From contig NZ_KZ119600.1 of NCBI RefSeq assembly GCF_002153425.1, forward strand, positions 2,000,684 through 2,064,683: DNA of 64,000 nt. Direction: 5' to 3'. Below the pieces are notes generated by a model, which ran no database searches, was not told where the DNA came from, and saw only the letters and a list, made by a program, of their open reading frames with translations. The position numbers and the translations under genes were made by a program. This DNA is from Litchfieldia alkalitelluris. GTDB lineage: Bacteria; Bacillota; Bacilli; Bacillales; Salisediminibacteriaceae. How positions within the stretch are numbered: position 1 is the stretch's first letter; each line of letters starts with the position of its first letter. Positions 3,635 through 43,525 of this stretch are shown here, in pieces.

Positions 3635-3767
3635 TCTTGCACCTCGCTCTCTTAGTGATGAAACCGTTTATATAACGATAGTAACAATCATTTATTACAA
3701 GTCAAGAAAAGAGGACGGGTATTTATTAGGAAAATGAGAATACATTGGGAAGGGGAGGGGTGTTGGC

Positions 3768-4874
3768 GTGCTTACAGAAGAAAAGGTTCGAGTAACAGAG
3801 ATTCTAGAAAAATCAAATGATATTATTCGGATAAAAACTTCGGGAGGGTGTGGGAAAGCGCTCCTTTATCGAAGTCTTTGTCCTGACGTTGAAGTTGGTG
3901 ATGTAGTTATAGTCAACACAACGGCAGGCAATTTAAGACTAGGAACAGGTGGATGGGATATCGTTCGATACGTCATGAATAAGCATATAGAAGAGAAGGA
4001 TATTAGTAAAGAAGATGGACATATCATGAAGGCAAGGTATTTAAGTGATCAACACAGTGTTTTATCCGTAGAAGCTCCAGAAAGTATAGATCATGAATTA
4101 TTTCAACAACCAATACATTTGAACGGACGAAATATATTAATAGGCGAGTTACATAGTATGCTCCCGATCGTTTGGTTTTTATTAAAAATCTTAAAAGAAG
4201 AACAATCTTCTTTAGCAGTTATCTTTAGTGATGAGGCTTCTTTGCCCTTAATAATGAGCAAGCATGTATCTTATTTACATAAGCAATCGTCGTTTTATTC
4301 TATCACGACAGGTCAAGCATTTGGTGGAAAAGCAGATGCAGTAAACGTAGTCACTGGCTTACAATATGCAGTAAAAAAATACCCCATTGATACACCGATC
4401 TTAATTACATTAGGACCAGGGGTAGTAGGATCTAACACTCACTATGGCTATAGTGGATTAAGTCAGGCAAATTGGGCTAATTATATTGGCGCATTAGGAG
4501 GTAAACCAGTCTGGATCCCTCGACTATCAGAGTATGAGAGTCGTGAGAGACATCGCGGGATTAGTCATCATACATTAACGCCTCTTAAGGAATTAACATT
4601 AACAGAAAGCATCTTACCATTACCAAGTGGAGAGTATAGTGACAGCTTAGTGAGTAACGGAATTGATTTAATTAAGAACCAATCACATATTTATATAAAA
4701 CAAATTTCAGAATATAAGCTTTTTCCGTTACTAGAAAGGGTTCAGAATTTGTCCCCATTTCCTTTATCAACAATGGGACGAACAATTGACAAAGATCCTT
4801 TATTTTTCTTAGGGGTAGCAGCTGCAGTATGCTGGTTATTAGAGAGTGAACGGTGCCATTCCTCCACTAAATAA
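3768..4874 (+). CDS. DUF3866 family protein of unknown function
   Basis: A 368-residue soluble protein with a GTG start placed eight bases after a strong AGGGGAGGGG ribosome binding site. The N-terminal part resembles a small beta domain (VRVTEILEKSNDIIRIKTSGG), and the middle has an alternating alpha/beta pattern with GPGVVGSNTHYGYSG and GGKPVWIPRLSEYESRERHRGISHHTLTPL. The family occurs in Bacilli and Clostridia and has no known biochemical role. Its last 133 bases overlap antisense with the extended mciZ frame. No operon partner; divergent from the AKR gene. Confidence 0.7.
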   Translation: MLTEEKVRVTEILEKSNDIIRIKTSGGCGKALLYRSLCPDVEVGDVVIVNTTAGNLRLGTGGWDIVRYVMNKHIEEKDISKEDGHIMKARYLSDQHSVLSVEAPESIDHELFQQPIHLNGRNILIGELHSMLPIVWFLLKILKEEQSSLAVIFSDEASLPLIMSKHVSYLHKQSSFYSITTGQAFGGKADAVNVVTGLQYAVKKYPIDTPILITLGPGVVGSNTHYGYSGLSQANWANYIGALGGKPVWIPRLSEYESRERHRGISHHTLTPLKELTLTESILPLPSGEYSDSLVSNGIDLIKNQSHIYIKQISEYKLFPLLERVQNLSPFPLSTMGRTIDKDPLFFLGVAAAVCWLLESERCHSSTK

Positions 4875-19384: not shown

Positions 19385-19625
19385 TAATTACCTCAAGAGG
19401 TAGAGGCGCAAAGCGAATGAGTACATTGCAGGAGTAATTGGAGTACAAGGATGGCAATGGAAAGGTCAATTTGCCGAAGCTTTCGAGTTTTCCAAAACTT
19501 GTTATGCTGGGGTGTTGTTGAATAAACAGCGCACTGCCACTACATATGTAGTGGAGCACTATCCGATGGATAACGATTAATATTCGAATCGTTAAGGATA
19601 ACGGATAGATCCGTTATCCTTTTCT
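19385..19625 (+). promoter_or_regulatory. lysine riboswitch (L box) with terminator
   Basis: The aptamer signatures are in order: AGAGGTAGAGGCGC (from 19396), GGAGTA, GATGGC, TTTGCCGAAGC and the GCTGGGGTGTTGTTGAATAAACAGC-type arm, then a stem around ACTACATATGTAGT. Downstream, AAGGATAACGGA pairs with TCCGTTATCC (19594-19622) before TTTTC. This is the terminator, while the earlier GGATAACGATT can compete as anti-terminator. It lies just before lysA, so high lysine should stop transcription. Confidence 0.92.
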
Positions 19626-22404: not shown

Positions 22405-22517
22405 GACATCATTGTCATTTTTTCGTCACACCATATATCTTGCTTAAGTATAATCTTAGTGATACTATCAAAACATCGAGAAAATTAACAAAGATAAAAT
22501 TTAATAAATTACCGAAG

Positions 22518-22664
22518 TCCTTCGGGGTAGGGTGAAATTCCCAACCGGCGGTGATGAAGTACCTTAGTGGTATTTCTAAGCCCGTGACCCGGCACATTTT
22601 TATGTGACGGTGGATCTGGTGTGAAACCAGGGCCGACAGTATAGTCTGGATGGGAGAAGGTTAC
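22518..22664 (+). promoter_or_regulatory. FMN riboswitch (RFN element)
   Basis: All conserved blocks are present in order: TTCGGGGTAGGGTGAAATTC, CCAACCGGCGGTGATG, TAAGCCCGTGACCCG, GACGGTGGATCTGGTG, AAACCAGGGCCGACAGT and TAGTCTGGATGGGAGAAGG. It precedes the rib operon and the terminator at 22793-22827, so FMN binding should stop transcription before ribD. Confidence 0.96.
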
Positions 22665-22792
22665 GACGGTGGAAATGGTTAAAGGGATTAGTATGTATTT
22701 TAAAGTCCTTTTGCAGCCAGAATTTTTGTTTTAAAAAACAGTAAATTCCGGCTTATTTAGATATGCCATTTTCACGAAGTTGCGTTTCCATT

Positions 22793-29343: not shown

Positions 29344-29392
29344 AAGAGGCTGTCCCAAAAGTATAAACTTTTGGGCAGCCTCTCTCTTTTTT
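29344..29392 (+). terminator. terminator after ypuI
   Basis: AGAGGCTGTCCCAAAAGT and ACTTTTGGGCAGCCTCTCT form a 17-18-bp stem with a tetraloop, followed by CTTTTTTC. It belongs to the same GAGGCTG-headed terminator style as 21018 and 49327, though with a different inner stem. Confidence 0.88.
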
Positions 29393-29408: not shown

Positions 29409-29540
29409 GAGTACTCGAACCGCTATAGGCGGACGCTTTCCGCGGGCAATGCTTCAGCTTCCTCGGGAAAACCACCCTGCGGGATCTTCAGCTATTGCTT
29501 TTCCCGCTGGAGTCGCCGCCTGTCGCTCTTCGAGTTACTC
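29409..29540. repeat. GC-rich structured dispersed repeat, copy 1
   Basis: Core GGACGCTTTCCGCGGGCAAT ... TTTTCCCGCTGGAGTCGCC (29431-29517), nearly identical to the core at 41464-41551. It is enclosed by the pair GGCGG (29428-29432)/CCGCC (29516-29520), then by GAGTACTCGAA (29409-29419)/TTCGAGTTACTC (29529-29540). The outer stems differ in sequence from those of copy 2 but occupy the same position. It lies in the ypuI-to-30400 gap. Likely a non-coding mobile or structured element. Confidence 0.65.
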
Positions 29541-29613
29541 TTATCAATGGAAAAACACACACGGTCAATACTTTGGTAATAAGCTTGTCTATTTTTAACA
29601 AAAATGAAAAATA

Positions 29614-29677
29614 AAAAAATCGCTCCAATTGGTATAATTAAAGTACCGCCAATAACCTACCAAAGGAGCGATTTTTT
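29614..29677 (+). promoter_or_regulatory. hairpin covering the ribosome binding site of a transposase remnant
   Basis: AAAAAATCGCTCC (29614-29626) is the perfect complement of GGAGCGATTTTTT (29665-29677). The right arm contains the GGAG ribosome binding site and ends at the ATG at 29678. Such pairing would block translation of read-through transcripts, a known strategy by which insertion sequences limit transposase synthesis. Confidence 0.5.
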
Positions 29678-29803
29678 ATGACATATAATTATATATCCTT
29701 CAAAAATTATAACATGGAACAACTATATTTACCAATGGATTTAGAGGTACATATCCCAGAAAACCATGTCTGTCGAATAGTAAATGAAGCTGTGGAACAG
29801 TAA
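29678..29803 (+). pseudogene. IS1182-type transposase N-terminal remnant (41 aa)
   Basis: The short frame reads MTYNYISFKNYNMEQLYLPM then DLEVHIPENHVCRIVNEAVEQ and stops. The pattern NYN-x-Q-L-x-LP-x-DLE-x-x-IPE(N/D)H-x-x-R-x-V is how IS1182-family transposases (about 450-550 aa) begin. All the catalytic DDE part is absent; after the stop the sequence no longer looks transposase-like. I read it as the left end of a deleted element. It lies in a repeat-rich gap between ypuI and the forespore genes. Confidence 0.6.
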
Positions 29804-29890
29804 TCTTATGTTGGTTTCGTTACGATCCATTCCCAGTCCTTGGGCATAACACAAGTCCAATCCCCGTATACACCTTGTTAACAAATTTTA

Positions 29891-30400
29891 TTAGTTTTCC
29901 ATAATTTTTTTTAGCCAGTGGTTCATTTGTGTAGTCAATAATTTAGATTGCCCAATTAACAAGCTGATTTCTGAACTTGGATCTACTTTAGTTCCTTGGA
30001 AGACCCCTTTTATCTCCCCATTTTTTGTTAACCAGTACTTATGAATGTATGTATGATAAGCCTCCCAAAAGTTATTTAATATCATTAATTGCTCAAATGA
30101 ATAGATTTTATTTAGTTGATTCTCACTTATAGACAATTCTTTGGGGGATAATTCTATCTCCCTTTTATGAATATCTACAGTTTGTTTTTGGACTGCGTTA
30201 CGAACTTCCATGCATTGAAGTTCTACGGTTCTTTTTAGTTCATCCTTCCATTGAACACTATTATAAGGGTTGTTTTTGTTATTTACGGTGTTAGGTTTAT
30301 GAATAAACTTTTCCAAAATGTGTAACTTTCTGAATAGAATCCAAAGGCCGGTCAATTGGATAAAAATACTGAGACTTATTAATACTATTATTATCAACAC
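29891..30400 (-). CDS. hypothetical membrane-anchored protein, 169 aa
   Basis: Not recognised. It starts with TTG (30400), with GGTGG upstream. One N-terminal membrane helix (IIIVLISLSIFIQLTGLWILF) is followed by a soluble helical region (VELQCMEVRNAVQKQTVDIHKREIELSP; FEQLMILNNFWEAYHTYIHKYW). It sits alone on the minus strand between the transposase remnant and the forespore promoter at 30487. Nothing indicates a function; it may be an imported gene. Confidence 0.5.
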   Translation of the reverse strand: MLIIIVLISLSIFIQLTGLWILFRKLHILEKFIHKPNTVNNKNNPYNSVQWKDELKRTVELQCMEVRNAVQKQTVDIHKREIELSPKELSISENQLNKIYSFEQLMILNNFWEAYHTYIHKYWLTKNGEIKGVFQGTKVDPSSEISLLIGQSKLLTTQMNHWLKKIMEN

Positions 30401-30486
30401 CTATTTCCACCACATTTCTTTTAAATACAATGTTTATTTTACATTATATTGTAGAAAAAGTAAGCACTGCAGTCTGTGTCATTTAT

Positions 30487-30516
30487 GGATAAAAAATGTT
30501 AATTGGATCCATGTTA
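30487..30516 (+). promoter_or_regulatory. candidate sigma-G promoter for the lipoprotein-spoVAEb pair
   Basis: GGATA (30487-30491), 18 bases, then CATGTTA (30510-30516). The -10 matches the sigma-G consensus CATNHTA fully and the -35 (GHATR) at four of five bases. It lies about 70 bases before the start of the lipoprotein gene and would explain how spoVAEb is expressed in the forespore away from the spoVA operon. Confidence 0.6.
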
Positions 30517-30584
30517 ACAAGTAAGGAATTTTTAAAATGATACTATGTCCTTCATAGGTATCACAAGGAAGGAGCTAAAGTATA

Positions 30585-31028
30585 GTGAGGTTAGTGATGG
30601 TTAGAATCATTATTCTATTTTTAATCCCACTGCTTTTAATTAGCTGCCAAAATCCACCAAATGGACAAACTGCTTTTGAAGCTGAAGGGTCTCGTAAACC
30701 AAGTATTTCACAAGACACGGCACAAAAAATGCGAGCAGAAGTACAGGCGATGTCTGAGGTAGACCACGTTACTAGTGTTTCATTGGAAGATGATGTGTAT
30801 ATGACATTAACAGTAACAGGTTTTCAGCGACTTTTTTTAGAAAAAATAAGAAAAACTGCGTTTGATCGAGCAAAAAAAGTGGATAAGAATACTACTGTTC
30901 ACATATCCACAGACCGTAAAGTAGACATGGAGTTAAAAGAATTAGAAAAAAAAGTATACCGAAATGAAATTACAAAGAAAGACTTGGAAAAGGAACTTAT
31001 GAAAGTGGAAGATGATATGAAAGGTTAA
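30585..31028 (+). CDS. YhcN/YlaJ-like sporulation lipoprotein
   Basis: A signal peptide ending in the lipobox LLIS-C (Cys near residue 21) indicates lipid attachment. The mature part (SQDTAQKMRAEVQAMSEVDHVTSVSLEDDVYMTLTVTGFQR... ending with a charged helix) resembles the YhcN/YlaJ family of spore lipoproteins, which often accompany spoVA genes. GTG 30585 is nine bases after AAGGAAGGAG; ATG 30597 is an alternative. It directly precedes spoVAEb (ribosome binding site right after its stop) and shares the sigma-G-like promoter. Confidence 0.7.
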   Translation: MRLVMVRIIILFLIPLLLISCQNPPNGQTAFEAEGSRKPSISQDTAQKMRAEVQAMSEVDHVTSVSLEDDVYMTLTVTGFQRLFLEKIRKTAFDRAKKVDKNTTVHISTDRKVDMELKELEKKVYRNEITKKDLEKELMKVEDDMKG

Positions 31029-31043
31029 ATGGAGGTGATGCAT

Positions 31044-31394
31044 ATGATGTTTTTCTGGGCTTTTGTAGTAGGTGGCTTGATTTGTGTGGTAGGTCAAGTA
31101 TTAATGGATGTGGGAAAACTTACACCAGCCCACACGATGAGTACACTTGTAGTTTCTGGTGCTGTCCTAGACGGTTTAGGTCTGTATGAGCCATTGATTG
31201 ACTTTGCAGGTGCAGGTGCAACAATTCCAATTACTAGCTTTGGTAATGCACTAGTGCACGGAGCGATGGCAGAAGCAGAAAGGCATGGTTTAGTTGGAAT
31301 AATAACTGGTATTTTTGAAGTTACTAGTGCAGGTATCTCAGCGGCAATTATATTCAGCTTTCTTGCATCCCTCGTATTTAGGCCTAAAGGCTGA
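31044..31394 (+). CDS. spoVAEB: stage V sporulation protein AE (SpoVAEb), outside the spoVA operon
   Basis: Small membrane protein of the DPA channel core (SpoVAC-AD-AEb). The sequence [59 protein letters not shown] and a C-terminal FRPKG are classic SpoVAEb. GGAGGTGATG lies before the ATGs at 31044/31047; the first gives 116 aa. It is about 14 kb from the spoVA operon at 16160 and is paired with a YhcN-like lipoprotein instead of spoVAC and spoVAD. Confidence 0.9.
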
Positions 31395-31426
31395 ACGTAA
31401 AGTAATTCTGAAATCAACCTATATAA

Positions 31427-31457
31427 TGGTATCTCGTATGTAAGAGGTACCTTTTTA
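31427..31457 (+). terminator. terminator after spoVAEb
   Basis: GGTATCTC and GAGGTACC pair (one G-U) across an eight-base loop, followed by TTTTTAT. Confidence 0.7.
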
Positions 31458-31474
31458 TGTTTGCATTTGACTTG

Positions 31475-31503
31475 GACATAACTTTTCTTTCTTTGCATAG
31501 ACT
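31475..31503 (+). promoter_or_regulatory. candidate sigma-E promoter of dacB
   Basis: GACATAAC (31475-31482), a 13-base spacer, and CATAGACT (31496-31503). The -10 agrees with CATACAHT at seven of eight bases and the -35 at six of eight. dacB is a sigma-E gene in B. subtilis, and the start codon is 43 bases downstream. Confidence 0.6.
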
Positions 31504-31546
31504 TGTACAAACAGAAAAAAGACCAGCATGAAAGTGGAGGAAAACA

Positions 31547-32695
31547 ATGATTAAGAGAACATTAAAGCTAACTATGATATTTATTCTTGTTTTTAACATA
31601 CTACCTAATTACAGTGATGCAGCAACCTTTCCAGGTGATGTTTCTGCTAGGGGTTCTATATTAATAGAACAGGAAAGTGGTAGAGTACTATTTGAGAAAC
31701 AAGCACATACACCAATGAGAATTGCAAGTATCACAAAAATCATGACAGCTATTCTTGCCATTGAGTCTGGTCAGTTGGATGAATGGGTAACTGTATCGAA
31801 AAATGCAGAGGGAACAGAGGGCTCCTCCTTATACTTAGTTGCAGGTGAGAAAATTAAGCTGAGGGATTTAGTGTACGGACTAATGCTAAGATCTGGGAAT
31901 GACTCAGCAGTTGCGATTGCGGAGCATGTGGGTGGAAGTTTAGAAGGTTTTGTAACCATGATGAATCAAAAACGCGAAGAATTAGGAATGATAAATTCTG
32001 CTTTTGCAAATCCACACGGTCTAGATGATCATGAGGAGCATTACTCTACTGCTTATGATATGGCGATCCTTACAAAATACGCACTGGAGCTTGATGAGTA
32101 TAGAGAAATTGCGTCAACAAAAAGCTACACTTCGAAAAATAAAGCCGGAAGTGTAAGAAGTTGGCACAATAAAAATCGTCTTTTAACTCAGTTATATAAG
32201 CATAGTACTGGTGGTAAAACAGGGTATACAAAAAGGGCTAAACGCACATTAGTCAGTACAGCTAACAAGGATGAGATGGATTTAATAGCGGTAACAATAA
32301 ACGCTCCTAGCGATTGGAATGATCATATAAGTTTGTTTGAGTGGGGTTTTAATACTTTTAAACATTCTACCCTTGTAAAACAAGGAGTAATAGAAGTTGA
32401 GGATGAGTTTTACCAAGAAAAGATTACAGCAGAGTATTCTTTTGAATATCCATTGGCAGAGGAAGAAGTGGAGTTAATCGACAGGAAAGTGGTCCTATAT
32501 AGACCGCCAAATGATGATAAATGGGAAAGAGAAGATCCACCATATCCAATTGGAACAATTCAGTTGGAGTTAGGTGAAGAATTGATTGGGGTCGTTCCTC
32601 TCAAATATATCGGTGAAGATGAGGAAGCACCACCGTTTTGGAAAAAATGGCTCGATCACTTGTTCATGGTAATAGGAGTGAAGAACAGTGGTTAA
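31547..32695 (+). CDS. dacB: sporulation D-alanyl-D-alanine carboxypeptidase DacB (PBP5*)
   Basis: Mother-cell carboxypeptidase that sets cortex cross-linking. A signal peptide (about 1-26) is followed by SxxK in ASITKIM, SGN in LRSGNDSAVA and KTG in TGGKTGYT, then a C-terminal beta domain and a membrane-associated end. 382 aa matches B. subtilis DacB. It is followed by spmA with a short overlap, the conserved dacB-spmA-spmB order. It is distinct from dacF at 13176; the two serve opposite cell compartments. Confidence 0.93.
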   Translation: MIKRTLKLTMIFILVFNILPNYSDAATFPGDVSARGSILIEQESGRVLFEKQAHTPMRIASITKIMTAILAIESGQLDEWVTVSKNAEGTEGSSLYLVAGEKIKLRDLVYGLMLRSGNDSAVAIAEHVGGSLEGFVTMMNQKREELGMINSAFANPHGLDDHEEHYSTAYDMAILTKYALELDEYREIASTKSYTSKNKAGSVRSWHNKNRLLTQLYKHSTGGKTGYTKRAKRTLVSTANKDEMDLIAVTINAPSDWNDHISLFEWGFNTFKHSTLVKQGVIEVEDEFYQEKITAEYSFEYPLAEEEVELIDRKVVLYRPPNDDKWEREDPPYPIGTIQLELGEELIGVVPLKYIGEDEEAPPFWKKWLDHLFMVIGVKNSG

Positions 32696-33278
32696 TATTA
32701 TATGGGTATCACTATTTGTAATTGGTTTGGTGTTTGCTGGAATTAACGGGACAATGGATCAAGTAAATGAAGCTATTTTCCAAGGGGCAAAAGAAGCTGT
32801 TACCATTTGTATTGGATTAATCAGTGTACTTACCTTTTGGCTTGGATTGATGAGAATTGCAGAAAAAGCGGGTCTCCTTTTAGGGATGAGCCGCTTACTG
32901 CAGCCAATAGTAAAGCGACTTTTTCCAGATATACCAAAGGATCATCCCGCAATGGGATATATTTTGTCTAATATGAGTGCAAATATGTTTGGATTAGGGA
33001 ATGCTGCTACGCCTATGGGAATTAAAGCGATGGAAGAATTAAAGAGTTTAAATGGAGGAAAAGATGAAGCAAGTCGGTCGATGATTACATTACTTGCCGT
33101 GAATACTGCAAGCATCACGTTAATACCAACGACTGTTATTGCCATTCGAATTCAGTATGGATCTGTATCTCCAACGGAAATAGTAGGAACAACGATTTTA
33201 GCAACTGCCTGCTCAACATTAGGTGCTATATTAGTAGACCGTTTTTTCTATTATCGTAGAATGAAAAGAAGGACGTGA
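32688..33278 (+). CDS. spmA: spore maturation protein A
   Basis: Nucleoside-recognition (Gate) domain membrane protein needed for full core dehydration in spores. Helices include IIWVSLFVIGLVFAGING at the start, AVTICIGLISVLTFWLGLMRI and the Gate signature MGYILSNMSANMFGLGNAATPMGIKAMEEL. 196 aa. GTG 32688 overlaps the dacB end by eight bases. Confidence 0.92.
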   Translation: MVNIIWVSLFVIGLVFAGINGTMDQVNEAIFQGAKEAVTICIGLISVLTFWLGLMRIAEKAGLLLGMSRLLQPIVKRLFPDIPKDHPAMGYILSNMSANMFGLGNAATPMGIKAMEELKSLNGGKDEASRSMITLLAVNTASITLIPTTVIAIRIQYGSVSPTEIVGTTILATACSTLGAILVDRFFYYRRMKRRT

Positions 33279-33284
33279 CAAGCT

Positions 33285-33815
33285 ATGGAGTGGGTAACGA
33301 CCGTTTCCATGTGGATGATCCCATCTATTATTGCAATTATCTTAATCGCAGGAACCGTGAAGAAAGTCCCGACATATGAAACATTTGTAGAAGGGGCAAA
33401 AGAAGGCGTGAGTATGTCATTTTCAATTATTCCTTATTTAGTAGGAATGTTAGTTGCAATTACTGTTTTTAGGGAATCTGGTGCGATGGAATTTTTTATA
33501 TCTTTAATTAGACCTGCTTTGGAGATGGCTGGTATACCTGCTGATATTGTACCATTAGCATTAATAAGGCCTCTATCTGGTACTGGCGCTCTAGGTATGA
33601 CGAGTGATTTAATTGCTACACATGGTCCTGATTCATTTATTGGTCGATTAGCATCTACTATGCAGGGGAGTACTGATACTACCTTTTATGTTTTAACAGT
33701 ATATTTTGGTGCTGTAGGTATTAGAAAAATGGGTGACGCCCTTAAAGTTGGTTTATTAGCAGATTTGATTGGCGTTTTTGCCTCCATTATCATTGTCTCC
33801 ATTGTTTTTTTATAA
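33285..33815 (+). CDS. spmB: spore maturation protein B
   Basis: Partner of SpmA, also a Gate-domain membrane protein (176 aa). Visible: FVEGAKEGVSMSFSIIPYLVGMLVAI, LALIRPLSGTGALGMTSDLI and STMQGSTDTTFYVLTVYFGAVGI. It starts six bases after spmA. A terminator follows at 33881. Confidence 0.92.
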   Translation: MEWVTTVSMWMIPSIIAIILIAGTVKKVPTYETFVEGAKEGVSMSFSIIPYLVGMLVAITVFRESGAMEFFISLIRPALEMAGIPADIVPLALIRPLSGTGALGMTSDLIATHGPDSFIGRLASTMQGSTDTTFYVLTVYFGAVGIRKMGDALKVGLLADLIGVFASIIIVSIVFL

Positions 33816-33880
33816 TATGCATTTATAGGGTTACTAAATTTGATAGTAGACATCATAAAATTATATAATAAAAGTAACTA

Positions 33881-33916
33881 GAAAAAGCTCGTATAATTAC
33901 TAAACGAGCTTTTTCT
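33881..33916 (+). terminator. terminator after spmB
   Basis: AAAAAGCTCGT and ACGAGCTTTTT form a perfect 11-bp stem with a U-run. Confidence 0.85.
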
Positions 33917-34015
33917 TTGTGTAGGCTTTAAAAAAAGGATAGAATTAGTGTTTGAAAATGTGTATTCAATAACAAACTAGCTAATAGATTGAAATCTTGT
34001 TTTGGGGTGAGAGAT

Positions 34016-34735
34016 GTGGAAAGGTTACAGAAGGTAATAGCTCAATCTGGCATTACATCAAGAAGAAAAGCTGAAGAATTAATTGTTGAGGGGAAAGTAT
34101 ATGTGAATGGTAAAAGGGTAACGGAGCTTGGTACAAAAGTTGATCCGCAAATAGATAAAGTAGAAGTTAATGGAGTTCCATTAGAGAGGGAAGAACCAGT
34201 GTACTTTATGTTATATAAACCAACTGGTGTTATTTCGAGTGTATCTGATGAGCATAATAGGAAAGTCGTAACAGACTTTATCCCGACAGACCAGAGAATT
34301 TATCCTATTGGGAGATTAGATTATGACACTTCTGGACTCTTGCTCTTAACAAATGACGGAGACTTTGCCAACTTATTAACACACCCGAAACACAAAATTT
34401 ATAAAACATACATTGCTAAAGTGGAAGGCATGCCTTTAAGAGAAGATATTAAAAAGTTAGAAAAAGGCATTATCCTAGAAGATGGGAAAACAGCCCCTGC
34501 TAGAGTAAAAGTGATAAGAAGCGATAAGAGGAAAGAGACATCAATCGTAGAGATTTCTATTCATGAAGGAAGAAATAGACAAGTGAGGAGAATGTTTGAA
34601 GCTATTGGTCATCCAGTAATGAAATTAAAAAGAGAACAATACGGGTTTTTACAGTTAAAAGGGTTAAATGCAGGTGAATTTCGTGAATTAAAGCCACATG
34701 AGGTTAAAAAGATGCGAGAATTAGCTGTCACATAA
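34016..34735 (+). CDS. rluB: 23S rRNA pseudouridine synthase RluB
   Basis: Pseudouridylates helix 89 of 23S rRNA. The N-terminal S4 RNA-binding domain (MERLQKVIAQSGITSRRKAEEL) is followed by the catalytic Asp in GRLDYDTSGLLLLTNDG and by HEGRNRQVRRMFEAIGHPV. GTG 34016 aligns with the B. subtilis start and lies after GGGGTGAG, giving 239 aa; the upstream ATG 33989 is not used. It lies before resA, as in B. subtilis. Confidence 0.92.
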   Translation: MERLQKVIAQSGITSRRKAEELIVEGKVYVNGKRVTELGTKVDPQIDKVEVNGVPLEREEPVYFMLYKPTGVISSVSDEHNRKVVTDFIPTDQRIYPIGRLDYDTSGLLLLTNDGDFANLLTHPKHKIYKTYIAKVEGMPLREDIKKLEKGIILEDGKTAPARVKVIRSDKRKETSIVEISIHEGRNRQVRRMFEAIGHPVMKLKREQYGFLQLKGLNAGEFRELKPHEVKKMRELAVT

Positions 34736-34737
34736 TG

Positions 34738-34791
34738 TTCACAAATGTTCGGTTAAACCATATGTAAACATCACTTACGTAGTGTTAATAT
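34738..34791 (+). promoter_or_regulatory. candidate resA promoter region
   Basis: TGTAAA (34763-34768), 17 bases, TAATAT (34786-34791) resemble sigma-A elements. Upstream, TTCACAA (34738-34744, complement TTGTGAA) resembles part of a ResD binding site. ResD activates resABC in B. subtilis. The match is modest. Confidence 0.35.
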
Positions 34792-34832
34792 GTAACTGAT
34801 AAGATTGTAACAGGATTTAATGGGGGAGAAGT

Positions 34833-35360
34833 ATGAAACAAAAACGTTTAATTATACGTTCAATCATCTTAGTGGTAATGTTTGCAGCAATTGGCTATAC
34901 ACTGATATCCCATTTTACAGAAGATCGCGGGCGTGTCGATAGAGATGATATTGCACCTAACTTTGCAGTAGTAGATACAGAAGGGAATTTATTAGAACTA
35001 GCAGATTTAGAGGGTAAAGGTGTCTATGTCAACTTTTGGGCTACGTGGTGTTCTGTATGTAGAGATAAAATGGAGCACTTAAAAAACAATTATGATGATT
35101 ATCGTGACAAAGGTGTCGTTATTGTTGCTATTAACTCTGGTGAGGGCAGCACTGTTATCCAAAGACATATGGAACGTTTTCAATACAACTATCCGCTCTA
35201 TATAGATAGAGGGAATTTAGTAGGGAACGCTTATGGTGTAATGGAAATTCCAGTCGCATTCCTTATCGACGAAAATGGTGTTGTCCTAGATAGGGAGATA
35301 GGGCCAAAATCAGAGGAAAAAGTGATACAGTCACTTGAAAGATTAATTCCAGGTAATTAA
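34833..35360 (+). CDS. resA: ResA, thiol-disulfide oxidoreductase for cytochrome c maturation
   Basis: Membrane-anchored TlpA-family protein (signal anchor residues 7-28) that reduces the CXXCH cysteines of apocytochrome c for heme attachment by ResBC. The position before resB and the 175-aa length identify it. The active site reads FWATWCSVC, not the CEPC of B. subtilis ResA, and the cis-proline loop reads MEIPVAFLID. The proline between the cysteines is thus missing, which is unusual for a TlpA protein. Confidence 0.9.
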   Translation: MKQKRLIIRSIILVVMFAAIGYTLISHFTEDRGRVDRDDIAPNFAVVDTEGNLLELADLEGKGVYVNFWATWCSVCRDKMEHLKNNYDDYRDKGVVIVAINSGEGSTVIQRHMERFQYNYPLYIDRGNLVGNAYGVMEIPVAFLIDENGVVLDREIGPKSEEKVIQSLERLIPGN

Positions 35361-35372
35361 TGGGGGATATAA

Positions 35373-37076
35373 ATGGAAAAAGTGAAATGTGATTGTGGCC
35401 ATGTGAACCCTTATGGTACTTATTTATGTGAATCATGTGGTAAGCCTCAAATGGAAGACAATCAGACTTTAGTTGATATGAGGTATGAAGGGGTTGCACG
35501 GCGGTCGCAAACTTATAGAAAAACGTTTATCGATAAAATATGGAACTTCTTTAGCTCCGTCAAGGTTGGTATATGGATTATTGTGCTCTTATTGATTGCA
35601 TCAGCCATTGGAACAATTTTCCCACAAGAAATGTACTTGCCTCCTGGGGAAAGGGCTGCAATCTATTATGAGCAAGAGTATGGAATATTAGGTAAACTTT
35701 ATTTTCAATTAGGACTCCACAATATGTATTCTTCTTGGTGGTATTTACTCTTGATTGCATCTTTAGGAGTATCGTTAGTAATTTGTAGTCTAGATCGAGT
35801 TGTTCCACTTCACCGCGCCCTTAAAACACAAAGGGTAAAAAGGCATACTTCCTTTTTAAATAGACAGAGATTATTCAGTAAATCAGATGATGTAATCGAA
35901 ACTGCCGAAGAGGATATTCAAAAAGCAGAAAAGGCACTTAGAGAAAAGAAATACAAAATATACAAGGAAGATGGAAATCTCCTAGCTGAAAAATATAGAT
36001 TTTCACGTTGGGGCCCTTATGTGAACCATGTTGGGCTAATCATTTTTCTAGTTGGTTGTATGCTTCGATTCTTCCCTGCAATGTACATAGATGAAAATAT
36101 CTGGATTCGCGAAGGGGAAGAGGTTGTTATTAGAGGAACTGATGGAGAGTACTTTCTGAGAAACGACCAATTCATCGTAGAATATTACGATGAAGAGGAT
36201 GAAAGATTTAGAGACTCATTCGAACGTACTGGGGGTCAGCCTGTTGTAGAAACATACCAGACTTCAGCTACATTATTAAAGAAAGTCGATACTGGTACTG
36301 TTGGGGTTGGAACCGAATTGGAAGAAGTGAAGCAGTATGATATTAGGGTGAATGATCCGTTAACTTTTGAAGGGTTTTCACTATACCAAGTAGATTACAA
36401 GCTTAATGAATTAGCTGAGTTTACTTTTACAATAGAGTCAAACTTGGATGATTATAATGGTGACTTGTCAAATATCAGTTTTGAAGTGGATTTATATAAT
36501 CCTGAAATGGTTTATGAGCTAGACGGTGGGTATCGAGTAGAAATATTCCAATATTTCCCGAACTTTTATATTAATAATAGAGGAGAACCAGACACACGTA
36601 ACAGGATACCAGATAACCCAAGATTTATTTTTGAGGTATTTTCCCCTGAAGTGGACCACGAAGAAGAACGTGGAGAGCTAAGCTTAGTTGGTGTTCAAAT
36701 TAATGAACCCCTAGTAGATGAAGGGGAAGTAAATGATTATAGTATACGAATGATAGATGTGGACATGAACCATGTTACGGCACTAACAGTGAGAAGAGAC
36801 AGAACCCTTCCAATACTTTTTGTTGGCGGAACAATCTTTATGATTGGATTAATTCAAGGATCTTACTGGCACCACCGTCGTATATGGTTGCAAAACCGAA
36901 AAGGTGTTATTTGGGTTGCAGGACATGCAAACAAAAACTGGCATGGTTTAAAGAAAGACATTGAGTTTATCATTGAAGGAACATCTATTCCGATGCCGGA
37001 AGATCAGACAGACGAATCGAATATGATAGAGGAGATAGAAGGGGTGAAGGGAAACGATGATGCAACAACTAAGTAG
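35373..37076 (+). CDS. resB: cytochrome c biogenesis protein ResB (Ccs1)
   Basis: Membrane partner of ResC in system II heme delivery and ligation. N-terminal zinc-ribbon-like [18 protein letters not shown] (residues 5-22), then helices at [37 protein letters not shown] and [15 protein letters not shown], and a large extracytoplasmic beta-rich part. A final helix ([16 protein letters not shown]) is followed by a soluble tail. 567 aa. The stop lies inside resC. Confidence 0.92.
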
Positions 37077-38244
37077 TAACTTTTTGTTAGTGGCATTCTT
37101 TCTTTATTTGGCATCAACAATCCTTTTTGCTGTATCGATTACAGGGAGAAGATTTAAAAATAAGGAAGGAGAAGAGAAAAATAAATCAGGATTATTAGGT
37201 TATATTGCTTCTATTTTGGCAGTAATTGCATCTTTGCTATATTTTATATTCCGCTGGATTGCAGCTGGTCATGCGCCCGTAAGTAATATGTTTGAATACA
37301 CGACCTTCCTTGGTATATGTATGGCTGTTGCCTTTGTCATCATATATCCTATTTATAAAAACAATTATTTAGGTATTTTTACAATGCCAATTGTTATGTT
37401 AATTATTGCGTATGCATCTATGTTTCCAGGTGAGCTTCAACCGTTAATTCCTGCGTTACAGTCTAACTGGTTAACAATACATGTTATAACTGTTGCGCTG
37501 GGTCAAGGGATTTTAGCAATTGGGTTTGCTGGAGGTCTACTTTACTTAATCCGAGTGGTTGACTTTACAAAGACATCGAAAAAAGTAAAAGGAGTAGAAT
37601 TTATACTCTTCTGTATTTTCTGTACCGTGGCTTATATTATGTTAGGGATGGGCTTTGGTGCAGCGGATTATGAAGCTCAATTTAATTATGTGAATGAAAA
37701 TGGCGTAGAAGCTGTAATGGGTTATCCAATGCCACCACTTATAGGGCCAAATGAAGGGGAAAGGATTTCTGAAGGATTTGAGCCATTTCTTTCAACGCCT
37801 GCTATTATTAGAAGTAATGATTTAAACACAGTAATTTGGTCTATCCTTGGCGGGTTAGTTCTATACTGGGGACTTAGATTAATAATAAGGAAACCAATTG
37901 GAGGTTTGATTCAACCTCTACTAAAATCAGTGAATCCACAATCAGTTGATGAATTGAGTTATCGTGCCATTGCCATAGGTTTTCCTGTTTTCACACTTGG
38001 TGGCTTAATTTTTGCTATGATATGGGCACAAATTGCCTGGACGAGATTTTGGGGATGGGACCCTAAAGAAGTATGGGCACTAATTACCTTTCTATTTTAC
38101 GCAGCATATCTGCACCTGCGTCTGTCTAGGGGATGGCATGGAGAGAAAAGTGCGTGGCTTTGTGTAATTGGCTTTGCCTTAATTATGTTCAATCTTATCT
38201 TCGTTAACCTTGTTATTGCCGGTTTACACTCATACGCTTTCTAA
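37057..38244 (+). CDS. resC: cytochrome c biogenesis protein ResC (CcsA)
   Basis: Polytopic protein with the heme-handling signature [15 protein letters not shown] near the C-terminus and several conserved histidines ([33 protein letters not shown]). 395 aa. It overlaps resB by 20 bases, coupling the two subunits. A strong hairpin (38294-38340) separates resABC from resDE. Confidence 0.92.
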
Positions 38245-38293
38245 TGCATATTCACTGAATGAACAACGTATATATTTTATTTTGTTTTATAGA

Positions 38294-38340
38294 GAAGAGA
38301 GGCTTAAACTAAGGATCTATTCCTCGTTTAAGCTTCTTCT
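38294..38340 (+). terminator. hairpin between resC and resD
   Basis: GAAGAGAGGCTTAAAC and GTTTAAGCTTCTTC pair around a 17-base loop. Only a weak U-rich stretch follows, so it may attenuate and not fully stop transcription into resDE. Confidence 0.55.
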
Positions 38341-38501
38341 ATATATAAATGCAAAAGTAGGTTAAAACTATGATTATATATAATTTTTGTTTATGTATAT
38401 ACAATAACTACTTTTGTCATGGTACAATGTAATGTGAATATTTAGTCGAAAAATTAGAAGTGATCACAAATAATATAAGTTTAATTTGAGGGGGAATTGT
38501 G

Positions 38502-39218
38502 ATGACACAAGAAGCCAAAATTTTAGTTGTTGATGATGAAGAACGTATTCGACGTCTGTTAAAAATGTATTTAGAAAGAGAAAATTATGAAGTTGATGAT
38601 GCAGAAAACGGTGAAAAGGCATTAAAATTAGCACTAGACAAGGATTATGACCTTATCGTCTTGGATTTAATGATGCCTGGTATCGATGGTATTGAGGTAT
38701 GTGAAGAAATACGTAAACATAAAGCTACTCCTATTATAATGCTAACTGCCAAAGGGGAAGAAGCTAACCGTGTACAAGGCTTTGAAGCTGGTACGGATGA
38801 CTATATTGTAAAACCTTTTAGCCCTAGAGAAGTAGTGTTAAGGGTTAAGGCATTATTGCGTCGTTCTTCTACAACGAAGTTTTTGCAAACAGAAACTACG
38901 ACAAAAGATGTATTAGTTTTTCCACACTTAACAATAGATAATGATGCTCACCGAGTAACTGCTGATGGAAAACATATTAGTTTAACGCCTAAAGAGTATG
39001 AATTGCTCCACTACTTAGCAATGTCACCAGATAAAGTGTTTGCTAGGGAACAATTACTCAAGGATGTATGGAATTATGAGTTTTTTGGTGATTTAAGAAC
39101 TGTAGATACTCATATCAAACGCCTTAGGGAAAAGTTGAACAAAGTATCGCCTGAAGCAGCAAATATGATTTCGACTGTATGGGGAGTCGGATATAAGTTT
39201 GAGGCTGTGAAAGAGTAA
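38502..39218 (+). CDS. resD: response regulator ResD
   Basis: OmpR-type regulator of aerobic and anaerobic respiration. Receiver domain with DDEER, phosphoacceptor Asp in LDLMMPG, TAKGEE and KPFSPREV. The C-terminal winged helix (LTPKEYELLHYLA; DLRTVDTHIKRLREKL) binds DNA. ATG 38502 follows GAGGGGG. It overlaps resE by one base (TAATG). Confidence 0.94.
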   Translation: MTQEAKILVVDDEERIRRLLKMYLERENYEVDDAENGEKALKLALDKDYDLIVLDLMMPGIDGIEVCEEIRKHKATPIIMLTAKGEEANRVQGFEAGTDDYIVKPFSPREVVLRVKALLRRSSTTKFLQTETTTKDVLVFPHLTIDNDAHRVTADGKHISLTPKEYELLHYLAMSPDKVFAREQLLKDVWNYEFFGDLRTVDTHIKRLREKLNKVSPEAANMISTVWGVGYKFEAVKE

Positions 39219-41002
39219 TGATGCTTTGGCGTAGCGTTGTAGGAAAGTTATGGTTAACGATCCTACTTCTTGTTTCTGTTGTATTAACGATACTAACGGT
39301 AATGTTGTTACAATATTTTGAGCGATTTCATACAGAACAGGCAGAGAATCAGTTAATTAACCATGCGAGTTTAATTGCATCACTGTTAGAGGAAGAAAAT
39401 ACACAAGATGCAGCATTATCCATGAGTAAAGATATAGCAGAAAAGTTTGCAATTAATGCGGTTGTTATAGTGAATGGAGAGGAATACATCTTTACTACAA
39501 CAGAAGAGATGTATCATGAACAGCCTGCATTAGTATTTAATGAAGACCAGGAGCTTTCTTCTGTTTTTCTAGAAGATGATTTCGTTATTACACAAGGAAC
39601 ATATACTTTTCCAATGGGTGAAGAGCAGGTTACGGAAGACTTAATGGTTGTTGGCATGCCTGTTAGTATTAATCCTGGAGATTCAGGTAGTATATTTTTA
39701 TATCAATCACTTGAAATACTTGAAAGTGCTTCTAGCCAAACAAAGCATATCATTTATTTATCTGCTGGTATCGCTATTGTGCTAACAACTGTATTTGCTT
39801 TTTTCTTAACAACTAGAATAACAGCTCCACTTAGAAAAATAAGGAAAGCCTCTTTGGAAGTTGCAAAAGGAAATTTCGATATGAAGGTTCCTATCTTGAC
39901 CAATGATGAAATTGGACTTCTAGCAATTGCCTTTAATAGAATGGCAAAAGCCTTAAATACGAACTTAAACGCATTAAATCAGGAGAAAGAGCAATTATCC
40001 CGAATATTAAGCTCAATGGCAGATGGAGTAATAACACTAGATCGCGAAGGTTCTGTTATGGTTACGAATCCGCCAGCAACTGAATTCATCAGTGCTTGGT
40101 TATATGAACAGGGATATGAAGTAGAAAAAGCTGGTAACTTACCAAAAGAACTAGAAGATCTCTTTGAGAAAGTTGTACAAGAAGAGAAGGAACAAATGGG
40201 AGAAGTGGATGTCCAAGGAAGAAGTTGGGTTATATTAATGACCCCATTGTATGGCCAACAAGATGTCCGAGGTGCAGTTGCTGTTTTACGTGACATGACG
40301 GAGGAACGCCTCCATGATAAACTTCGTAAAGATTTCATTGCTAATGTTTCCCATGAGTTACGTACACCTATCTCTATGTTGCAAGGATACAGTGAAGCAA
40401 TTATTGATGGTATAGCTGAATCAGAAGAGGAAAAGGTTGAGCTTGTTCAAATTATATATGATGAATCATTACGAATGGGGCGTCTCGTTAACGAATTTTT
40501 AGATTTAGCAAGAATGGAAGCAGGGCACATCCAGTTGAATAAAGAAAGCATTAACTTAACTGACTTCTGTCGTCGTGTCGTTAGGAAATTTCAAGGAGTT
40601 TCTAAGGAACATGGAATTGAGTTAATAGACGAAATATCTCTACTAGAAAAGCCTATACATGCAGATGGAGATCGTATTGAACAAGTACTTACAAATTTAA
40701 TTGATAATGCTATACGTCACACGTCTGAAGATGGTAGTGTAACCTTGAGGGTTGAACCATATGAAAATGGGGTAAAACTTGAGGTGGAAGACACAGGTAC
40801 TGGTATACCAGAGGAAGATCTTCCTTTTGTATTTGAACGTTTCTATAAAGCGGACAAGGCTAGAACACGTGGCCGTTCAGGTACAGGCTTAGGCCTTGCA
40901 ATAGTTAAGAACATTGTCGAATCGCATAATGGGAGAATATCAGCACATTCCAAAGTAGATGAAGGAACGACATTTTCTGTCTATTTACCCTATGAATCAT
41001 AA
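39218..41002 (+). CDS. resE: sensor histidine kinase ResE
   Basis: Two membrane helices (about 10-32 and 179-200) flank an extracytoplasmic sensor region. Then come a HAMP segment (TRITAPLRKIRKAS), a PAS domain (MADGVITLDREGSVMVTNPPATEF), HisKA (NVSHELRTPISMLQGYSEAI) and HATPase (LIDNAIRHT; DTGTGIPEED; GRSGTGLGLAIVKN). 594 aa. Cognate kinase of ResD. Confidence 0.94.
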   Translation: MMLWRSVVGKLWLTILLLVSVVLTILTVMLLQYFERFHTEQAENQLINHASLIASLLEEENTQDAALSMSKDIAEKFAINAVVIVNGEEYIFTTTEEMYHEQPALVFNEDQELSSVFLEDDFVITQGTYTFPMGEEQVTEDLMVVGMPVSINPGDSGSIFLYQSLEILESASSQTKHIIYLSAGIAIVLTTVFAFFLTTRITAPLRKIRKASLEVAKGNFDMKVPILTNDEIGLLAIAFNRMAKALNTNLNALNQEKEQLSRILSSMADGVITLDREGSVMVTNPPATEFISAWLYEQGYEVEKAGNLPKELEDLFEKVVQEEKEQMGEVDVQGRSWVILMTPLYGQQDVRGAVAVLRDMTEERLHDKLRKDFIANVSHELRTPISMLQGYSEAIIDGIAESEEEKVELVQIIYDESLRMGRLVNEFLDLARMEAGHIQLNKESINLTDFCRRVVRKFQGVSKEHGIELIDEISLLEKPIHADGDRIEQVLTNLIDNAIRHTSEDGSVTLRVEPYENGVKLEVEDTGTGIPEEDLPFVFERFYKADKARTRGRSGTGLGLAIVKNIVESHNGRISAHSKVDEGTTFSVYLPYES

Positions 41003-41139
41003 TGGATCTTGACTGAATTGAGAGAATGATCTTGTTCCACAAGAAACAACGGTAATTGCCATAAAGATTGTCTATTAAAAATAGGTTATCAGTTCTTTTG
41101 TAAAGTTACCGTGAAAATCCAAACCTTGTGTTCGTGTTC

Positions 41140-41250
41140 ACTAAAGTCCAATAGCTCTCACACTATGTAGCTGTGAGTTATCTCGAGGATGTACTTCGTA
41201 GCATAGGCTCGTAGAGGAAGAGACAGTTTACCTCATGGACTTACGTTCAC
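41140..41250. repeat. degenerate copy of the 366-bp repeat unit
   Basis: The stretch GTGAGTTATCTCGAGGATGT ... GTAGAGGAAGAGACAG is a decayed version of the segment from 41912 to 41969 (TTCGAGTTGTCTCGACGGAT ... GTAGAGGAAGAGACAG). It lies in the resE-moaB gap. The surrounding 41003-41340 sequence shows no gene. Confidence 0.45.
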
Positions 41251-41343
41251 ACCAACTTATTAATATAAATTTTCATGCTTCATTTGTGCAGTAATATATA
41301 TTGCTTGGAAGTCTGCTTTAAATACGTTTTCTTCCAGTCGCAA

Positions 41344-41400
41344 AAAGATTATTTAATTTAGTAGCTAATGATTAGTTATTAAATTGAATAGTCTTTTTAT
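41344..41400 (+). terminator. A/T-rich hairpin, possible resDE terminator
   Basis: AAAAGATTATTTAATTTA is roughly complementary to TTAAATTGAATAGTCTTTTT, with a U-run at its end. It is the first termination-like structure after resE, though about 340 bases away. Confidence 0.4.
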
Positions 41401-41401
41401 T

Positions 41402-41608
41402 AGGCTCTTTTCTAAAAGATTGTTGTTTAATACATAATTATTTAGCTTGGCTACGCTACTGGTGGACGCTTTCCGCGGGCAATGCCTCAGCCTCCTCGGG
41501 AAAAACCACCCTGCGGGGTCTTCGACTATTGCTTTTCCCGCTGGAGTCGCCACCTTTCGCTTCTCCAAGCTTTTTTATAAAAAGCAACAAAGTTTACGAA
41601 AAGAGCCT
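41402..41608. repeat. MITE-like element: structured GC-rich repeat copy 2 with terminal inverted repeats
   Basis: The GC-rich core (41464-41551) is the same as at 29431-29517. Around it, GGTGG (41461-41465) pairs with CCACC (41550-41554) and AGCTTGG (41444-41450) with CCAAGCT (41565-41571). The outermost ends AGGCTCTTTTCTAAAAGATT (from 41402) and GTTTACGAAAAGAGCCT (to 41608) are imperfect terminal inverted repeats. Non-coding; nothing else explains the segment. Confidence 0.6.
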
Positions 41609-41659
41609 TTTATTATGAAGTATAAAAAGCCATCGACCAAATGTTATCGGTTTACTTCA

Positions 41660-41753: not shown

Positions 41754-41807
41754 ACAAGTAAGCCTGTTTTCCAAATGTAATGTTACTTTATTCAGTACTT
41801 TTTGGCA

Positions 41808-42564
41808 GATGACCAAGGCGCTTGCGCTTTTCAGTGTAGTGATTAGAATATAAGTAGTTTCTTCGAAACAATGTCTAGCTCCAGCGACGAGCGTTTACTT
41901 CACGAGTATGCTTCGAGTTGTCTCGACGGATATGCTACGTAGCATTTGCTAGTAGAGGAAGAGACAGCTGGTTTTCGGCCCAAGAAACTTCCTTCACCTC
42001 GTCTACGATAAGTCAACATCAACTCACTCCGTTCGTTGTGTTTCCTTTATCTCACGATAGCTTCTTCGAATTAGCTCCTCCAACGAGCGTTTACCTCACG
42101 AATATGCTTCGAGTTGCCTCGACGGATACACTCCAGAGCGATGCTAGTAGAGGAAGAGGCAGTTTTTGTGGCCGATGACCAAGGCGCTTGCGCTTTTCTT
42201 TGTAGTGTTTAGAATATAAGTAGTTGCGTCGAAACAGTGTCTAGCGCCGGCGCCGAGCGTTTACTTCACGAGTATGCTTCGAGTTGTCTCGACGGATATG
42301 CTACGTAGCATTTGCTAGTAGAGGAAGAGACAGCTGGTTTTCGGCCCAAGAAACTTCCTTCACCTCGTCTACGATAAGTCAACATCAACTCACTCCGTTC
42401 GTTGTGTTTCCTTTATCTCACGATAGCTTCTTCGAATTAGCTCCTCCAACGAGCGTTTACCTCACGAATATGCTTCGAGTTGCCTCGACGGATACACTCC
42501 AGAGCGATGCTAGTAGAGGAAGAGGCAGTTTTTGTGGCCGATGACCAAGGCGCTTGCGCTTTTC
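41808..42564. repeat. tandem duplication of a 366-bp unit (2.07 copies)
   Basis: GATGACCAAGGCGCTTGCGC occurs at 41808, 42174 and 42540, exactly 366 bases apart. From about 41889 to 42174 the first copy appears identical to 42255-42540; differences cluster in the first 60-80 bases of the unit. Each unit itself holds two diverged subrepeats of about 80 bases (GAGCGTTTACTTCACGAGTA... and GAGCGTTTACCTCACGAATA...). The last partial copy ends at the moaB stop codon. Confidence 0.9.
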
Positions 42565-43077: not shown

Positions 43078-43266
43078 GTATATATCTCCTTTCTCAGTAC
43101 ATCCCCTATAGCAATGATGTTGATCACTTCTATTGTGTTTACTTTCCTGTTGTTTTTTGTTAAATCATGTATAATATATCTATAGTCATTTCTATTTCTA
43201 TCTTAACAAATGGTATAAATTCAGTACACAGCTACTGTGCATGAATTAAATATATCTGCTTATTTA

Positions 43267-43427
43267 AGGTCATACTATTTTCTGTATGTTAAAAGGGAAG
43301 CTGGTGAAACTCCAGAACGGTCCCGCCACTGTAAGCGTTTTGACAGCTTTAATATCCACTGTGATCCTTTTTCATGGGAAGGGGAAGCTAGTCGCATAAA
43401 CGTAAGTCAGGAGACCTGCCTTAAAGT
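43267..43427 (+). promoter_or_regulatory. adenosylcobalamin riboswitch
   Basis: GGGAAGCTGGTGAAACTCCA, GAACGGTCCCGCCACTGTAA, and the B12 box AAGTCAGGAGACCTGCC are all present in order with the expected spacing. It precedes btuC-btuD-pduO and is followed by a terminator at 43526-43554. Confidence 0.95.
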
Positions 43428-43525
43428 AATTATACCTTCGTGGAAAGGGTGAAGCAGCAGTGGTCTAGAGGATGGGGATTGTCAAATGGATAATCTAACT
43501 TATATCTTATTCTGCTGCCATCACT

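Follow-up and report, generated by a model that had tools for sequence, protein, structure and literature searches.

A covarying hairpin core carried by an IS1595-family miniature element and an IS1182-type leader in Litchfieldia alkalitelluris

Two copies of the core in the window

The window analyzed here is a stretch of 64,000 nucleotides from Litchfieldia alkalitelluris (G000:C1:2000684-2064683, G000 being its own genome), and it carries two copies of a repeat whose folded core is the subject of this report. Both copies are members of a large Bacillales repeat family and lie in different mobile elements, copy 1 beside the remnant of an IS1182-type insertion sequence (IS) and copy 2 at the centre of a miniature inverted-repeat transposable element (MITE) with IS1595-type ends. 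A sequence-only reading had placed them at 29409-29540 and 41444-41571, and these positions were borne out by a covariance model, R1, which was built partly from the two window copies and matched 29412-29537 and 41445-41571, both on the minus strand, at approximately 142 bits. The features of the two settings are listed below.

29346..29382, plus strand: left-end hairpin of a truncated IS1182-type IS (from sequence; like hairpins begin IS copies in G002, G003, G007 and G016)
29409..29540, minus strand: core copy 1 with outer arms GAGTACTCGAA/TTCGAGTTACTC (R1 at 29412-29537, minus, 142.0 bits; alignment A1)
29678..29803, plus strand: IS1182-type transposase remnant, first 41 codons and then a stop (71% identity over 41 amino acids (aa) to L271:662-2227, DUF772)
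41395..41402, no strand: left copy of the 8-bp target duplication TTTTATTA (duplication plus inverted-end scan; sequence)
41403..41607, no strand: 205-bp MITE whose inverted ends are IS1595-type and whose interior is the core (end pattern at 41403, plus, and 41607, minus; duplication/inverted-end scan)
41403..41425, plus strand: left inverted end GGCTCTTTTCTAAAAGATTGTTG (end pattern; duplication/inverted-end scan; IS1595 end match)
41444..41571, minus strand: core copy 2 with outer arms AGCTTGG/CCAAGCT (R1 at 41445-41571, minus, 142.1 bits)
41585..41607, minus strand: right inverted end GGCTCTTTTCGTAAACTTTGTTG (end pattern; duplication/inverted-end scan; IS1595 end match)
41608..41615, no strand: right copy of the 8-bp target duplication TTTTATTA (duplication plus inverted-end scan; sequence)

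Copy 2 lies in the middle of an element 205 bp long, which ends in inverted repeats of 23 bp and is bordered on both sides by an 8-bp sequence duplicated without mismatch. The ends match those of two autonomous IS1595 elements, L249 and L376, while no transposase gene was found in the element and no open reading frame (ORF) of 100 aa or more occurs within its 205 bp. Judged by its ends and duplication, copy 2 is an IS1595-family MITE and as such non-autonomous. An interior derived by deletion from a parent IS is not a defining trait of all MITEs, and no such derivation was found for copy 2, inspection showing that only the ends are common to it and the bounded IS1595 elements.

As judged from its neighbours, copy 1 sits in a leader that belongs to a truncated transposon of the IS1182 type. 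Downstream of the core lies a fragment of 41 aa with 71% identity to a DUF772 protein, and we take DUF772 together with a DDE domain to be the mark of IS1182. This IS is incomplete, not having both ends, and is regarded as a remnant because its reading frame ends at 29803 while its relatives run longer. In relatives the core has the left-end hairpin on one side and the transposase on the other. When ORFs no more than 450 bp away from 306 copies were clustered, IS1182-type transposases made up the largest recurrent cluster, with 21 loci that include several copies of one IS and three weak matches (L095, L200 and L274); the smaller clusters were mostly repeat self-translations in appearance. The IS1182-type ORF lay at the core's 5' side on the opposite strand in 20 of 23 cases, and a DUF772 or DDE domain was found in six of eight scanned proteins. 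Two clear IS1182-type lineages carry the core, or up to five by inspection, and transposases of two lineages are 37-42% identical. The observation that the outer arms of the two window copies pair at the same place without any relation in sequence was correct, and the arms proved to be parts of two different mobile elements; they are unrelated because the copies sit in two different transposon contexts.

Elsewhere in the window, a tandem duplication with a period of 366 bp (300 bp at 96%) and four 68-bp units occupies 41799-42564, and the own genome contains many further occurrences of pieces of it. Lysine, flavin mononucleotide and cobalamin riboswitches reached the Rfam gathering score at 19393-19569, 22514-22665 and 43250-43437, respectively.

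Covariation of the fold

Alignment A1, in which 47 distinct copies were aligned in the minus-strand sense, supported a single unbranched long hairpin. Pairing was observed in 92.5% of 1876 cells compared with 84.1% after shuffling, none of 500 shuffles equalled the real alignment in any of the five measures used, and two-sided change was seen in 23 of 40 pairs. When partners were shifted by 1-3 columns, pairing was only 35-42%. The proposed compensatory change from GGCGG/CCGCC to GGTGG/CCACC was upheld, as column pair 20-126 had C-G in 32, U-A in 11 and U-G in 4 of the 47 copies with no mismatches. Column pair 44-105 had U-A in 20, C-G in 17 and G-C in 10 copies with no exceptions, and column pair 54-96, spotted by inspection, had C-G in 178 and U-A in 47 of 228 rows of a wider alignment. 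Helix 1, the outermost arms, was paired in 75.4% of cells, helices 2-6 in 93.8-98.4% and the apical helix 7 in 85.1%.

A further alignment, A3, held 40 copies from named loci which we picked among 137 matches, and when folded by itself it gave the same rod. Two rows (L241 and L271) were identical letter for letter to A1 copies and were removed, leaving 38, in which two-sided change was seen in 29 of 45 pairs and the paired fraction was 0.907 compared with 0.775 +/- 0.006 over 300 shuffles. Collected copies thus gave strong compensatory change in the 47 and again in the 38 further copies from named genomes. Against 200 dinucleotide shuffles, copy 1 had folding z scores of -6.0 (plus) and -5.2 (minus), with no shuffle as stable on either strand, and copy 2 had -2.9 (plus, 3 of 200 shuffles as good) and -4.2 (minus, none of 200). 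The architecture is that of a rod of covarying stems interrupted by conserved purine-rich internal loops. In a variant from genome G015 (L331, L332 and L333) the apical loop contains approximately 60-70 extra bases.

Since pairing persists through compensatory change, the core structure appears to be under constraint, and the fold itself seems to matter, being kept while letters change across dozens of copies from Bacillus relatives. The sequence-only reading had proposed that pairing is kept without conserved sequence and that folding, as RNA or cruciform DNA, is what matters. For the core and inner stems this stood, both in A1 and in the 38 copies folded independently of the first structure. 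Copies with unpaired arms, named there as counter-evidence, occur in part, the outer arms being unpaired in about one quarter of cells, and six short elements of genome G307, described below, are core-less.

As to which strand folds, G-U outnumbered A-C by 47 to 10 in A1, favouring the minus strand, and by 25 to 9 after clustering at 85%. In the 38 non-A1 copies the counts were 38 and 25 (p 0.13, not significant), a comparison that takes in two adjacent column pairs which we think are mis-paired; with the two A1 duplicates still present (40 rows) they were 44 and 26. A 232-row alignment gave 209 and 108 with clustering at 95%, falling to 58 and 50 at 80%. Because the asymmetry fades outside A1 and with loose clustering, the minus strand is put forward as a suggestion for the folding strand, and the fold may be one of RNA or of cruciform DNA.

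Distribution, transposon ends and mobility

In the own genome, BLASTN with copy 1 gave 15 matches at E<=0.001 and with copy 2 gave 13 at E<=0.01, while R1 gave at least 62 matches at E<=0.001 among 87 scored candidates. R1 matches were present in 35 of 40 relatives; these counts cover the candidates scored in each genome, so that the larger ones are lower bounds. With stricter filters and eight candidates per genome, four of 398 genomes of the phylum had a match, all of the window's class. A pattern scan of named contigs found at least 117 stretches, and genera among the matches listed include Sporosarcina, Bhargavaea, Oceanobacillus, Lentibacillus, Gracilibacillus, Planococcus and Evansella. 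The core was found in none of 50,697 phage records and in two of 72,556 plasmid records, and one exact pattern occurred in a single stretch among viral contigs. A record titled Arthrobacter beigongshangensis (L266) contains a typical core, and a tandem array of six cores with a period of approximately 180 bp lies at L206 41-1091 of Psychrobacillus vulpis.

With simple ORF calling, 185 of the 190 copies that had 900 bp of flank or more lay outside ORFs longer than 400 bp. Among the 184 copies with genes on both sides, 55 ran along both genes, 51 against both, 50 lay between convergent and 28 between divergent genes, so that no bias in orientation relative to host genes was found (55 versus 51). 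Regulation of host genes in cis was rejected for this reason. Both the unbiased gene direction and the location outside ORFs are what one would expect of a core that serves its element and not a host gene.

The end pattern of the copy-2 MITE (at most three mismatches) occurred 120, 81, 40 and 8 times in four genomes and the reversed pattern not at all. Flanks were scored by counting the matching end letters and subtracting 3 for each mismatch in the 8-bp repeat; a score of at least 14 was reached by 13 of 120 copies and by none of 119 re-paired flanks. Three end types were recognized on core copies (24, 5 and 3 copies with both ends), and all three recur on IS1595-type elements, type I on L249 and L376, type II on L378, L379, L380, L381 and L385, and type III on L374. 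Of 278 copies, 32 had such ends on both sides and 42 on one, compared with 0 and 2 of 207 control windows. Cores at L201 and L247, from a metagenome-assembled genome of Sporosarcina psychrophila, are bordered by inverted ends of a fourth kind (GAGG..ACTGAAAAAGT).

A scan of 373 loci for facing ends separated by 0.5-3.8 kb, in which seven or more of the eight duplication letters agree, yielded L249, L054 and L348. L249, from Perspicuibacillus lycopersici, is flanked on both sides by TTTTAGAA and encloses a 337-aa protein with a DDE_Tnp_IS1595 match above cut-off and a zinc-ribbon match below it; a HAD-type hydrolase gene at 3649-4314, apparently a passenger, also lies within it. L054, from the own genome, has seven of eight duplication letters and encodes a 209-aa transposase part, 65% identical to that of L249 and without a Pfam match of its own. 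L348 (584 bp between its ends) contains repeats and no transposase was seen in it. A further candidate autonomous element, G015:C1:1536802-1538373, was likewise dropped, the transposase being absent from the stretch fetched and a host-type gene present there. Pfam PF12762 was present in 10 of 44 genomes (13 loci). Among these loci, exact 8-bp duplications were found at the ends of L374, L376, L378, L379, L380, L381 and L385 and an inexact one at L377; the ends of L375, L382, L383, L384 and L386 were not resolved. None of the bounded IS1595 elements (L249, L054, L374, L376-L381 and L385) contained the core, hidden Markov model hits occurring only above E 0.6 and R1 giving none, while L382, which is not bounded, has a core-like match within its locus. 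An ISL3 driver had been considered on account of 8-bp duplications and GG[CT]TCT ends. It was set aside in favour of IS1595, as the MITE end was absent from 25 scanned ISL3 loci and G015 had no PF01610 match.

Core-bearing elements are mobile, as evidenced by 8-bp duplications and by occupied and core-free versions of one orthologous site. The site is the gap before a gene which, from its first residues, we take to be polA, and it was surveyed in 21 genomes of one genus and was readable in 19. The core was present in four of these (G434, G445, G450 and G452). R1 confirmed it in G434 and G445 only; G450 and G452 were judged by eye, since small inserts interrupt the core. Neither R1 nor inspection detected a core in the remaining 15 genomes, and G444 and G453 were not resolved. 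In G434 the element is flanked on both sides by TTCTTTTA. The core-free gap of G455 contains a short hairpin, a possible remnant, and those of G441 and G446 contain other extra sequence. The small foreign inserts in the core arms of G450 and G452 (L352 and L357) suggest that the core may itself be an insertion target. For the copy in the window itself, 1.5 kb separate the two flanking genes in the own genome, versus mostly 12-550 bp in genus mates, which lends weak support because other repeats fill this gap too.

In genome G307 facing ends lay approximately 88-120 bp or 184-235 bp apart, and the core was absent from all six short elements fetched and present in all six long ones. The short elements look like deletions because they retain pieces of the core arms, joined at differing short repeats. 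An inserted copy can therefore dispense with the core.

A possible role for the core and its alternatives

The account that follows starts from what this analysis observed directly, namely the structure and its covariation, mobility, the ends, the target duplications and the association with both transposon types. With moderate confidence, we propose that the core is a structured module serving transposons, which would most likely act in read-through RNA and keep insertions quiet and tolerated. The copy-2 MITE would be moved in trans through inverted ends of the kind used by an IS1595-family transposase. Between these ends it carries the 127-bp folded core, which is also present in the IS1182-type leader of copy 1. 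Neighbouring transcription would read through the element and yield a core RNA, possibly of the minus strand, and the folded RNA, perhaps together with an RNA-binding protein or nuclease of the host, would silence the element and make it tolerated, in effect insulating it. A module serving transposons is the simplest account, given that the structure is constrained, the element is mobile and the constraint is independent of host-gene direction. Read-through RNA is preferred because the MITE has no promoter-like site. A strict role in movement is weakened, as the core is absent from complete IS1595 elements and lost in some MITEs. We tentatively suggest that two or more unrelated transposase systems (MITEs with three IS1595 end types and several IS1182-type leader lineages) have taken up the fold because folded RNA serves transposons in Bacillales, for example by insulation or recruitment of a host factor; Rfam does not list the fold as a separate family.

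Several observations weigh against this proposal. Core-less elements exist in G307, and with the thresholds applied 204 of 278 copies lack all three end types. In a second, partly overlapping set of loci, 10 of 133 reached the end score versus 1 of 133 in the control, several of these 10 with other ends. The only IS1595-type transposase of the own genome is truncated, and G015, rich in core (87 R1 matches among 87 scored candidates), has no PF12762 or PF01610 match. A promoter- or terminator-like site was looked for in the copy-2 MITE and none was found, and strand asymmetry is significant in A1 only, being lost in the 38 further copies and the clustered 232-row alignment.

The same evidence can be read in other ways. 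The fold might act as a single-stranded or extruded DNA hairpin which aids the transposase or the replication machinery in transposition. The tie of the core to mobile elements and the one-strand preference in A1 would fit, as would the arrangement of adjacent hits no more than 250 bp apart (n=40; 25 divergent, 15 tandem and 0 convergent, some tandem hits being pieces of one interrupted core). We nevertheless consider it unlikely, since IS1595 elements with the same ends carry no core, which is thus not required for their movement; core-less derivatives also exist, and gene-strand bias is absent. A mutational origin, in which template switching in a quasi-palindrome aligns both arms and keeps the pairing without selection, would suit a long imperfect palindrome whose core-less copies resemble deletions between short repeats, as well as the slightly greater average conservation of paired columns (mean entropy 0.41 versus 0.55 bits for unpaired ones). 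It is nonetheless quite improbable, because arm-to-arm correction would erase the near-invariant unpaired loops, and 13 of 40 unpaired columns are near-invariant (entropy <0.16) and remain unpaired while stems change.

A host small RNA family copied by transposons also seems distinctly unlikely. Rfam RF02577, the Staphylococcus aureus small RNA tsr24, aligns on the minus strand across the core with similar stems and loops at E 5e-6, but with 33.0 bits against a gathering score of 50, and the Rfam scan of the window at the gathering threshold gave no match over the core. Besides the missing promoter-like site in the copy-2 MITE, copy 1 has only one on the minus strand, past the core's 3' side in the RNA sense, which is no more than expected by chance; presence and absence at one site also speak against a host gene. 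We give very little credence to the core being a REP-like palindrome (repetitive extragenic palindrome) spread by REP-associated tyrosine (Y1) transposases (RAYT). Inverted core pairs occur, and many genomes have long ORFs with a weak Y1_Tnp match, RAYT-like status being read from score and length, but copy number does not track these ORFs: G012, G017, G018, G019 and G021 have 45-87 R1 matches and no such ORF, G025 and G039 have the ORF and no core match, and G006 has the ORF with a single match. No consistent co-occurrence was found, the ends and 8-bp duplications fit IS1595, and the link was rejected.

Short non-autonomous repeats that fold as RNA include ERIC, NEMIS and other folding MITEs, from which the core differs in that one fold is common to three end types and to IS1182-type leaders. 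With IS1595-family insertion sequences the copy-2 MITE has in common inverted ends and 8-bp duplications; it differs in having no transposase and a structured interior missing from bounded complete elements. The bcr1 repeat of the B. cereus group is similar in being short, mostly chromosomal and present in many copies per genome with features of a mobile element; it is described as limited to the B. cereus group, with TTTAT motifs and a mechanism like site-specific recombination (PMC6542083). By this description the core, with 8-bp duplications, IS1595-type ends and many host genera, stands apart. Bhal-1 of Bacillus halodurans, a stem-loop family of 74 bp and 36 copies (PMC2267715), is alike as a stem-loop repeat family in a Bacillales host, compared by description only. 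The literature search found no paper that could be tied to the core sequence; an 11-base string matched only an unrelated paper, and the parts seen of PMC2890564 and PMC7392542 had no bearing on it.

If the fold works for transposons, the core would be a widespread structured module with natural occupied, core-free and core-deleted versions, and why a small mobile element keeps a fold would become testable. The MITE of copy 2 would gain an identity, and high-copy structured repeats of Bacillales may be parts of transposons rather than host small RNAs.

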